Shown here: positions 23,545 through 49,504 of the stretch, in pieces
Position numbering within the stretch: the first letter of the stretch is position 1
Layout: each line of letters starts with the position of its first letter
Source of the DNA: Bacillus sp. ISL-41
GTDB taxonomy: Bacteria; Bacillota; Bacilli; Bacillales; Cytobacillaceae
Assembly (NCBI RefSeq): GCF_018613235.1
Contig: NZ_JAGGQP010000031.1
Span: 1-49,504 of the forward strand
Reading direction: 5' to 3'
Length of the DNA stretch: 49,504 bases
Notes under the pieces: generated by a model
Told to the model about the DNA's origin: nothing
The model's database searches: none
The model's input: the letters and a program-made list of their open reading frames with translations, nothing else
Translations under genes and position numbers: made by a program

Positions 23545-23691
23545 AGGAGATTATCCTGTTCTTTCGGGAGATTATGCTTAATGATCGGGAGAATAACCAG
23601 GTTTTTTGGGAGATTATACTTATTGATTGGGCGAATAACCATGTTGTTCGGGAGATTATGCGCAATCATCGAGCAGTCAGCCAGGTTGAAC
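23545..23691. repeat. Intergenic 21-bp tandem array, alternating two unit types
   Basis: Seven units of exactly 21 bp begin at 23545, 23566, 23587, 23608, 23629, 23650 and 23671. From 23566 they alternate between an A form (GGGAGATTATGCTTAATGATC) without its last base and a B form (GGGAGAATAACCAGG...), so the higher-order period is 42 bp. Because 21 is a multiple of 3, the array stays open in one minus-strand frame without being a gene. The rest of the 23481-23889 gap shows nothing else that I can interpret. Confidence 0.85.
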
Positions 23692-32172: not shown

Positions 32173-32203
32173 AATTGGTAAAAAAGAGTGTTTTTTACCA
32201 ATT
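32173..32203. other. Perfect 13-bp inverted repeat beside the 20-bp array
   Basis: AATTGGTAAAAAA (32173-32185) and TTTTTTACCAATT (32191-32203) are perfectly complementary around a 5-nt loop. The hairpin abuts both the terminator before it and the tandem array after it. It could act as a second terminator, since the 3' arm begins with six T. Confidence 0.75.
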
Positions 32204-32342
32204 CGCTATAAAAACAAAAAAATCGCTATAAAAACAAAAAAATCGCTATAAAAACAAAAAAATCGCTATAAAAACAAAAAAATCGCTATAAAAAAGGAAA
32301 AGTCGCTATAAAAAAGAGAAAGTCGCTATATAAATTTATATT
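32203..32342. repeat. Intergenic 20-bp tandem array (TCGCTATAAAAAC units)
   Basis: Seven units start at 32203, 32223, 32243, 32263, 32283, 32303 and 32323. The first four are identical (TCGCTATAAAAACAAAAAAA); the last three keep TCGCTATA and diverge after it. The remaining part of the 32141-32618 gap holds a cre-like site at 32486-32499 and no visible gene. Confidence 0.92.
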
Positions 32343-44087: not shown

Positions 44088-44127
44088 GTAGACAAACTCG
44101 ATGGAAACGGAGTTTGTCTACTTTTTT
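44088..44127 (+). terminator. Rho-independent terminator after the CHR pair
   Basis: GTAGACAAACTC (44088-44099) pairs perfectly with GAGTTTGTCTAC (44110-44121) and is followed by TTTTTT. Confidence 0.9.
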
Positions 44128-44179
44128 ATGCCAGCAGTGAATAGCAAGTGAATCTTTCCTAAAAGACTACCAATGAAAA

Positions 44180-44656
44180 GTACCCTTATGAGAAGTGAAC
44201 CCCTGACATAAGGATTGGATTAATGCCTAAATGTACCCTTATAGGAAGTGAACCCCTGACATAAGGATTGGATTAATGCCTAAATGTACCCTTATAGGAA
44301 GTGAACCCCTGACATAAGGATACGATTAATGCCTAAATGCACCCTTATGGGAAGAAAAACTCCGTCATAAGGGTACAATTCAAGCCAAAAGGCACCCTTA
44401 TGGGAAGAAAAACTCCGTCATAAGGGTACGATTCAAGCCAAAAGGTACCCTTATGTGAAGGAAAGCTCTGTCATAAGGGTACGATTCAAGCCAAAAGGTA
44501 CCCTTATGTGAAGGAAAGCTCTGTCATAAGGGTACGATTCAAGCCAAAAGGTACCCTTATGTGAAGGAAAGCTCTGTCATAAGGGTACGATTCAAGCCAA
44601 AAGGTATCCTTATGTGAAGGAAGGCTCTGTCATAAGGGTACGATTAAATCCTACTT
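44180..44656. repeat. Intergenic 53-bp tandem array, nine hairpin-forming units
   Basis: Nine units start at 44180, 44233, 44286, 44339, 44392, 44445, 44498, 44551 and 44604. Each has an 11-nt arm (GTACCCTTATG), a 16-nt loop, a complementary arm (CATAAGGGTAC) and a 15-nt spacer. Units fall into three subtypes in order: 1-3, 4-5 and 6-9, differing mainly in loop and spacer, while the arms are nearly constant; units 1-2 have a shortened second arm. There are no unique spacers as in CRISPR. It fills the gap between convergent operons ending at 44049 and 44688. Confidence 0.95.
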
Positions 44657-48816: not shown

Positions 48817-48847
48817 GAGGGAAAGACTGTAAGAAGGAGTGGGAGTT

Positions 48848-49351
48848 GTGGAGCAAAAAATCTATTATGACATCTTTCATTTTAATGGAGACGAAATTTT
48901 TATGTCGGCGACCGACAAAGGCGTATGCTATGTCGGCTCACCAGAAGAAGATTATGAAGATATGGCTAAACGTTTTCCCACTGCTGTATTTGAAAAGAAT
49001 CCAGAATTCTTAAAACCATACAGGGAAGAGCTGGCTGAGTATCTTGAAGGGAAGCTCAGACAATTTTCCTTGCCAGCTGATGTAAAAGGGACCCCTTTTC
49101 AGGAAGCAGTCTGGACGGCCTTGAAGGAAATCCCTTATGGCGAAACATGTACATATTCAGATATTGCAGAAAAAATCGGCAAGCCTGCTGCAGTGCGGGC
49201 AGTCGGAACAGCCATCGGCGCTAATCCAGTCCTGATTTCCGTACCCTGCCACCGGGTCATCGGAAAAAATGAAGCAATCACAGGCTACCGTGGCGGGATT
49301 TCAATGAAGCAGCAGTTGTTGGAACTGGAGAAAGTACATTGTAGGAGTTAA
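48848..49351 (+). CDS. ogt: Methylated-DNA-protein-cysteine methyltransferase
   Basis: A 167-aa suicide DNA-repair protein that takes the methyl group from O6-methylguanine onto its own cysteine. The active site PCHRV is at 133-137 with C134 as acceptor. The HTH region (YGETCTYSDIAEKIGKPAAVRAVGTAIGANP, about 97-127) contains the Arg finger R118. The N-terminal domain (1-75) is the usual short Ogt type. GTG 48848 is preferred, 9 nt after AAGGAG; the in-frame GTG at 48839 touches that site. No terminator is seen before the tandem array that follows. Confidence 0.93.
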   Translation: MEQKIYYDIFHFNGDEIFMSATDKGVCYVGSPEEDYEDMAKRFPTAVFEKNPEFLKPYREELAEYLEGKLRQFSLPADVKGTPFQEAVWTALKEIPYGETCTYSDIAEKIGKPAAVRAVGTAIGANPVLISVPCHRVIGKNEAITGYRGGISMKQQLLELEKVHCRS

Positions 49352-49396
49352 TGTGCAAGAGGTTTAGTAAATAAGAAAAAAACTGGTTATAAGCAG

Positions 49397-49504
49397 AGGC
49401 AACATGTGCCCGAAAAGAAAGAGGAGCCACGATTTCGGTCACAAGAGGAGGCAACATGTGCCCGAAAAGGAAGAGGATCCACGATTTCGGTCACAAGAGG
49501 AGGC
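49397..49504. repeat. Intergenic 52-bp tandem array with hairpin units, cut by window end
   Basis: Units start at 49397, 49449 and 49501 (period 52); two full units are in view and the array continues beyond the window. In each unit GTGCCCGAAA (49406-49415 in the first) is complementary to TTTCGGTCAC (49433-49442) at 9 of 10 positions around a 17-nt loop. The two units differ at only a few loop positions. The sequence is unrelated to the 53-bp array at 44180, but the layout is the same. Confidence 0.88.

Follow-up and report, generated by a model that had tools for sequence, protein, structure and literature searches.

What keeps a tandem array of inverted repeats in constant form between two operons that face one another? 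The window analysed here, a stretch of 49,504 nucleotides from Bacillus sp. ISL-41, is the whole of contig C25 in a 4.62-Mb draft genome, and towards one end it carries nine 53-bp units (44180..44656, with no strand assigned) that we designate family A. The initial annotation read each unit as a hairpin, saw in the array the work of selection on structure together with recent local duplication, and proposed a transcription barrier, a protein-binding array or a source of structured RNA as possible roles. Our analysis leads us to a reading that we hold to be probable, in which the array consists of helically phased, inverted half-sites for a putative DNA-binding protein and not of hairpins.

The array, its neighbours and its relatives

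The nine-unit layout and its three successive subtypes are borne out when the units are read individually. All nine 53-mers are built of an 11-nt arm, a 16-nt loop, a second 11-nt arm and a 15-nt spacer. Units 1-3 (44180..44338) contain degenerate GGG half-sites (GGATTG, GGATTG and GGATAC), in units 4-5 (44339..44444) arm 1 starts with GCACCC, and units 6-9 (44445..44656) include GTATCC in unit 9. Tandem Repeats Finder places the array at 44176-44645, with a period of 53, 8.9 copies, 93% matches and 0% indels. A 27-bp gapped palindrome of the form GGGTAC-N15-GTACCC, our proposed operator core, lies at 44477..44503 (no strand assigned); seven others start at 44212, 44265, 44318, 44371, 44424, 44530 and 44583, and both halves are intact in three of the eight (44424, 44477 and 44530). 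The array is far above chance expectation, the pattern CCCTTAT-N18-ATAAGG giving 81 forward matches in the own genome and 0 with a backward control.

As had been described, the flanking genes converge on the array. Two chromate-transporter genes (Chromate_transp, Pfam PF02417; 42944-43522 and 43522-44049, + strand) approach from the left and an amidohydrolase gene (Amidohydro_2, Pfam PF04909; 44688..45542, - strand) from the right. Between the chromate-transporter genes and the array, a 12-bp stem with a 10-nt loop and a T run (44088..44127, + strand) resembles an intrinsic terminator by eye, its 10-nt loop exceeding the limit of both terminator scanners. The closest named matches to the amidohydrolase, in a list from which its own record may be excluded, belong to Bacillus sp. 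ISL-37, Mesobacillus selenatarsenatis SF-1, and Bacillus sp. ISL-45 and ISL-55, each at 98% identity; the genome is therefore Mesobacillus or very near to it. A second array, of family B (49396..49504; period 52, GTGCCC/GGTCAC, no strand assigned), is cut by the contig end and has an O6-methylguanine-DNA methyltransferase-type (ogt-type) gene upstream of it (48839-49351). The window also contains a 20-bp tandem array of 6.6 copies (32203-32334; TCGCTATAAAAACAAAAAAA), which belongs to the class of the published 20-21-nt repeats, and a 42-bp tandem array of 2.4 copies built of 21-bp halves (23562-23661). Arrays of the TATAGCGA-type, with 20-bp units, occur at loci L075, L076, L078 and L081 as well.

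Relatives of the unit stand elsewhere in the same genome, family A occupying at least 17 places. With the array as query, 29 matches were obtained in 17 separate places including the window, and a listing by the family-A pattern adds at least four further places (C5, C8, C10 and C15). Of the 16 stretches surrounding the other places, 14 contain a 53-bp array according to Tandem Repeats Finder; L022 and L024, at contig ends, each have a single family-A unit. Several contigs of the draft terminate inside arrays of the 52/53-bp type, and array counts from the draft are therefore lower bounds. To judge from the family-B array of the window and several other contig ends, such arrays seem to break the assembly. 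The family-B repeat is itself dispersed on several contigs of the genome.

An 800-kb sample of the own genome (40 stretches, each of 20 kb; among the second 20, some were picked in the knowledge that arrays lay there) yielded 28 arrays with periods of 50, 52, 53, 104 or 105, none of which falls within a gene called by our simple coding-potential script. By sequence, the arrays of the own genome sort into about eight families (A to H). Compared with shuffles, 20 of the 28 sampled arrays of the 52/53 class have an inverted repeat at the 5% level and eight do not. Among the 24 arrays flanked by called genes on both sides, 8 lie between convergent, 13 between tandem and 3 between divergent genes, as against 102, 340 and 106 of 548 intergenic spaces, an excess of convergent positions that is of borderline significance (p about 0.06). 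Where the genes are tandem, the upstream stop is nearer than the downstream start in 9 of 13 cases.

Beyond this genome, CCCTTAT-N18-ATAAGG is present in 17 of the 21 genomes of the genus. With perfect arms, the pattern is present in 14 of the 193 genomes of the bacterial family, all of them in that one genus; the perfect unit appeared in no viral contig, and blastn of the array against plasmid and phage records returned no match. At the same convergent gene pair, L077 has a family-A array of 5.4 copies with different loops and L080 and L082 have no array, hence presence and copy number vary among relatives and array length is not identical. The suggestion of recent local duplication also holds, units within an array being much more alike than units of different arrays. 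On the side of the ogt-type gene (about 4 kb away), where synteny was judged by distance to the amidohydrolase gene, a family-B array lies downstream in the window and in L081, arrays with GTGC(C/G)GATAA arms in L075 and L078, and a CCGCCC + GGTCGG array in L082. The site is thus retained among relatives, and both of its half-sites vary in sequence.

Half-site geometry and a shared frame

In family A the half-site, with its outward extension, reads ATAAGGGTAC-N-N-TT, and each 53-bp unit contains two of them in opposite orientation. The intervals between them are rigid. Measured from start to start, CCTTAT is followed by ATAAGG at a distance of 24, across the loop, in 81 of 86 own-genome steps, and ATAAGG by CCTTAT at 29, across the spacer, in 74 of 79; in a scan of the genus covering 20 non-duplicate loci (one of them own-genome) the corresponding counts are 94/97 and 88/92, three steps of 4 per set, due to overlapping CCTTATAAGG, having been left out. 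Loop identity between arrays is 0.41 as against 0.32 when shuffled (31 multi-unit arrays), and spacer identity 53% as against 31%; given the rigid distances, lengths are therefore conserved where letters are not. Arm identity over the same 31 arrays is 0.88 and 0.86, values in which the inner arm letters are fixed by the search, and an outward A-T at two positions that the search did not use is kept in 31/36 and 28/36 arrays or single sites.

The GGGTAC and GTACCC cores are 21 bp apart across the spacer and 32 bp across the loop, which sum to 53; the 21/32 phasing depends on the bases chosen as the centre of the half-site, whereas the five-turn period does not. We searched for core pairs family by family, with no more than one mismatch per core for families A, B, E and F and two mismatches for D. 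The distance is 32 bp 23 times in 32 arrays of family A (and 51 seven times), 31 in 12/13 arrays of B, 21 in 6/9 of E and 21 in 5/5 of F, while in D a distance of 31 occurs three times among others. Inverted half-sites at fixed spacing with free letters between them are the arrangement of a dyad operator.

A common frame underlies several of these families. In the consensus units of C, E, F and G, TGTC and GACA stand exactly 23 apart. The degenerate 27-bp form KGKY-N19-RMCM fits 60 of 82 distinct 52/53-bp consensus units, compared with 4% of shuffles and with 0-6 of the 82 at other gaps from 9 to 30; these counts are made at the level of arrays and are dominated by family A, and clustering by shared 7-mers merges all units into one cluster. 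Among the arrays assigned to a family, the frame is found in 19/23 arrays of A, 7/13 of B, 3/3 of C, 3/4 of D, 7/9 of E, 5/5 of F and 2/2 of G, and it is absent from H and from several arrays of relatives. Since family A fits the frame loosely (its core is GGGT and its period 53), that it belongs with the TGTC families is something that we infer.

The TGTC form, the strictest version of the frame, recurs in other genera of Bacilli. Doubled TGTC-N19-GACA sites, 51-53 bp apart, gave 1349 forward matches and 0 with the backward control in 398 Bacilli genomes, and an N20 gap in the same scan gave 2 chance-like matches. The N19 matches fall in 11 of the 398 genomes and 8 of 145 genera, the genus of the window contributing three of the 11 genomes and 1171 of the 1349 matches. 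In 100-kb samples of G018, G019, G007 and G011 there are 52/53-bp arrays that fit the frame, G018 and G019 being without family A; L204, a family-A array in G011, does not match the frame letters. Of the 27 published units of PMC8161180 (Table 1), six contain both TGTC and GACA, in seven pairs of which five are exactly 23 apart. Allowing up to one mismatch, 7/27 have the pair at a gap of 19 (shuffles: mean 0.3, maximum 3) and 0-3 of 27 at other gaps from 13 to 26, and the looser frame fits 8/27 (shuffles 0.6; other gaps 0-2). As 19-20 of the 27 published units are without the motif, the gapped palindrome is not universal.

Pairing between the arms and rival readings

Arm changes had been thought often to keep pairing, and arm covariation between copies had been named as a test of a structural role. 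Within arrays, neither was observed. In the window, six arm columns vary, one of which keeps its pair (unit 9, where C to T gives T-G) and five of which break it. A base-paired stem should co-change both between and within arrays. Between 36 non-redundant family-A arrays or single sites, in which arm positions 5-10 are fixed by the search and hence uninformative, pairing equals that of shuffles at position 3 (21 versus 20.9), position 4 (27 versus 27.8) and position 11 (17 versus 19.5), and is slightly higher at position 1 (27 versus 21.9, p 0.015) and position 2 (23 versus 18.5, p 0.047); the weak signal at these last two positions is also what dyad sites would give. Within 27 family-A arrays (duplicates removed; 200 candidate units from a loose finder that gives 11 units in the window, two too many), the informative columns hold 176 Watson-Crick pairs against 176.6 in shuffles (p 0.57), so that covariation of the arms is absent at this level. 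Mismatches within these arrays include 154 G-T and 149 A-C, and pairing around the spacer axis (237) is lower than in shuffles (254.8).

The 14 TGTC arrays present the same picture inside arrays and a different one between them. Within arrays, pairing is 23 as against 22.4 shuffled. Between arrays, the two sides co-change at pair 7 (12/14 versus 4.6), at pairs 4, 8, 9 and 10 (p near 0.01) and, less clearly, at pairs 5 and 6 (p 0.09 and 0.07), with no co-change at pairs 11 and 12. Co-change between arrays combined with independence within them is the behaviour of dyad protein sites, because both halves follow one protein. Furthermore, a C-T mismatch persists in the putative stem of family B (13/13 arrays) and of family D (3/4). 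Folding of both strands does fall well below shuffles (z -8.0 and -12.5), although inverted repeats alone would give such z values and the low energy is therefore no extra support. No Rfam family matches the window at gathering scores. Taken together, the within-array and wobble tests lead us to reject selection on the hairpin, and the hairpin interpretation is probably wrong.

Three further kinds of explanation and one of mobility compete with protein binding. The arrays could be a neutral or selfish satellite, arising and dying through slippage and unequal exchange and dispersed by copying, with palindromes kept by template-switch repair and no protein bound. Such a satellite would account for arrays that are homogenized internally and divergent between loci, and for one gene pair with 8.9 copies in the window, 5.4 copies and other loops in L077, and none in L080 or L082. 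It does not account for the exact N19 gap, which recurs across families and genera where N20 does not, nor for half-site distances conserved beyond the letters, and template switching should yield a pair-by-pair correlation inside arrays, of which none was seen. We consider a satellite of this kind unlikely.

That the array is transcribed and its hairpins act as structured RNA, whether as a sponge, a stabilizer or small RNAs, seems to us decidedly improbable. The folding energies are in keeping with it, with the reservation already given about inverted repeats, and, according to PMC8625621, 52-nt repeats of B. coagulans are visible in RNA-seq. Against this stand the want of unit-level covariation in 27 family-A and 14 TGTC arrays, G-T mismatches no commoner than A-C, the retained C-T mismatch of families B and D, and the fact that stem and loop lengths vary between families while the 27-bp frame is constant.

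A bidirectional terminator or insulator working through RNA structure between convergent operons would fit the intergenic position of all 28 arrays in the 800-kb sample and their borderline excess in convergent spaces. It would fit, too, a comparison of the amidohydrolase gene among relatives: a strong terminator-like site follows it in L075, L076, L081 and L082, which lack the array at this place, and none passed in the window and L077, which bear arrays. However, L078, L079 and L080, with no array at the amidohydrolase site, likewise passed none, and no T run follows the units. Array-facing gene ends have a terminator-like site in 12 of 29 cases as against 222 of 515 controls, so that a barrier taking the place of terminators finds no support as a general rule, this wider own-genome comparison giving no clear depletion of such sites. 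Termination of this sort is very unlikely. Hardly to be credited, finally, is a REP-like element mobilized by a transposase of the Y1 (RAYT) type. Of the 24 genomes tried, 19 gave Y1_Tnp matches, among them nine out of ten with TGTC arrays, and the own genome has two such matches. On the other side, six of the ten tried genomes outside the genus that have no TGTC matches gave Y1_Tnp matches too, and the link is weakened by G016, which has the most TGTC matches (514) and no Y1_Tnp match.

A proposed phased operator array among known repeats

An array of protein-binding sites, one of the roles first proposed, is the option that best survives, on account of the rigid spacing, the gapped palindrome and the absence of within-array covariation. 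From these features we infer a binding protein, its oligomerization and a role for the array. A putative sequence-specific DNA-binding protein would bind each 27-bp gapped palindrome; because half-sites of the same orientation recur every five helical turns, its molecules may line up or polymerize on a single face of the DNA throughout the array. The role would most likely be the packing of nucleoid DNA or insulation between operons, and nucleoid packing has also been suggested for the 51-53-nt repeats (PMC8161180). Sister families in the own genome have the frame KGKY-N19-RMCM in common and differ in the flanking letters. The presence of several families per genome counts against such a model, since it requires several proteins or one tolerant protein.

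Isolated family-A and TGTC sites, with neighbouring genes read by eye, lie mostly at gene 3' ends, one being placed between divergent genes (L213) and another, L177, being a two-unit site 3' of a gene resembling one for a Crp/Fnr regulator. No evident regulator gene was recognized by eye beside these isolated sites, and no binding protein was found. WhiA, with its GACAC motif, was considered as a candidate binder. Family-A sites at L010 and L177 adjoin genes that read by eye, without a family search, like Crp/Fnr-type regulators, possibly by coincidence, and at L015 a gene reading by eye like hfq is followed by a family-A array.

On a broader and more speculative view, to which we give limited credence, Bacilli may possess an undescribed chromosome-organizing system. 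Its DNA-binding protein, or set of paralogues, would recognize the 27-bp palindrome KGKY-N19-RMCM and assemble into phased filaments at the 52-bp arrays, of which a genome has dozens; the specificity of binding would co-evolve with the satellite families, much as centromere proteins do with satellites in eukaryotes. Given a palindrome that several genera share, its gap fixed at 19 bases, and given the evidence against RNA pairing, the problem becomes one of which protein binds the TGTC-N19-GACA arrays. If that protein exists, it would add a new layer of chromosome organization in part of a large bacterial group.

In 176 Bacillus genomes, Subirana and Messeguer (PMC8161180) described 1886 tandem repeats with units of 51-53 nt and 781 with units of 20-21 nt, constant in size and variable in sequence, with several families per genome and a function that was not known. 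The 52-nt repeats were described there as enigmatic, having constant size, no shared sequence and no obvious function; sequence conservation was not reported for them and their internal geometry was not given. Among the part of the literature matches seen, by titles and the starts of abstracts, no later mechanism for the 51-53-nt repeats was found; PMC8625621 reports that the repeats of B. coagulans are transcribed. The likeness of our arrays to this class is close: the published repeats have the same period, many families per genome, mostly 4-10 copies, a non-coding position and partial conservation between strains. The window array has a period of 53 and 8.9 copies (at least 4 being needed); the own genome has about eight families of the same size, non-coding (0/28 in genes), with family A dispersed over 17 places; and at one gene pair the array is present, different or absent. 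Species of Mesobacillus are included in Table 1 of PMC8161180 (as B. selenatarsenatis and subterraneus), where selenatarsenatis is listed with 'many' families common to boroniphilus and subterraneus. The window array therefore belongs to a kind already described and unexplained. Relative to PMC8161180, our analysis adds the frame of half-sites, the rigidity of the intervals between them and a test that speaks against pairing.

Other repeat classes are less close. The 20-21-nt repeats (PMC8161180) likewise occur in the own genome with a period that is a helical multiple, but they differ in that, among 17 arrays with periods of 20-22 or 40-43 bp, three have an inverted repeat at the 5% level, as against 20 of 28 in the 52/53 class. 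BIME/REP arrays are likewise intergenic inverted repeats in tandem; the arrays described here differ in that they do not seem to depend on a Y1 transposase. CRISPR arrays share regular spacing and an alternation of constant and variable parts, whereas here the arms are inverted, the constant parts alternate in orientation and neighbouring units share their variable parts (spacers). Partition-site and iteron-type operator arrays are helically phased, repeated binding sites. Unlike them, the arrays described here comprise many sites, at dozens of chromosomal loci.
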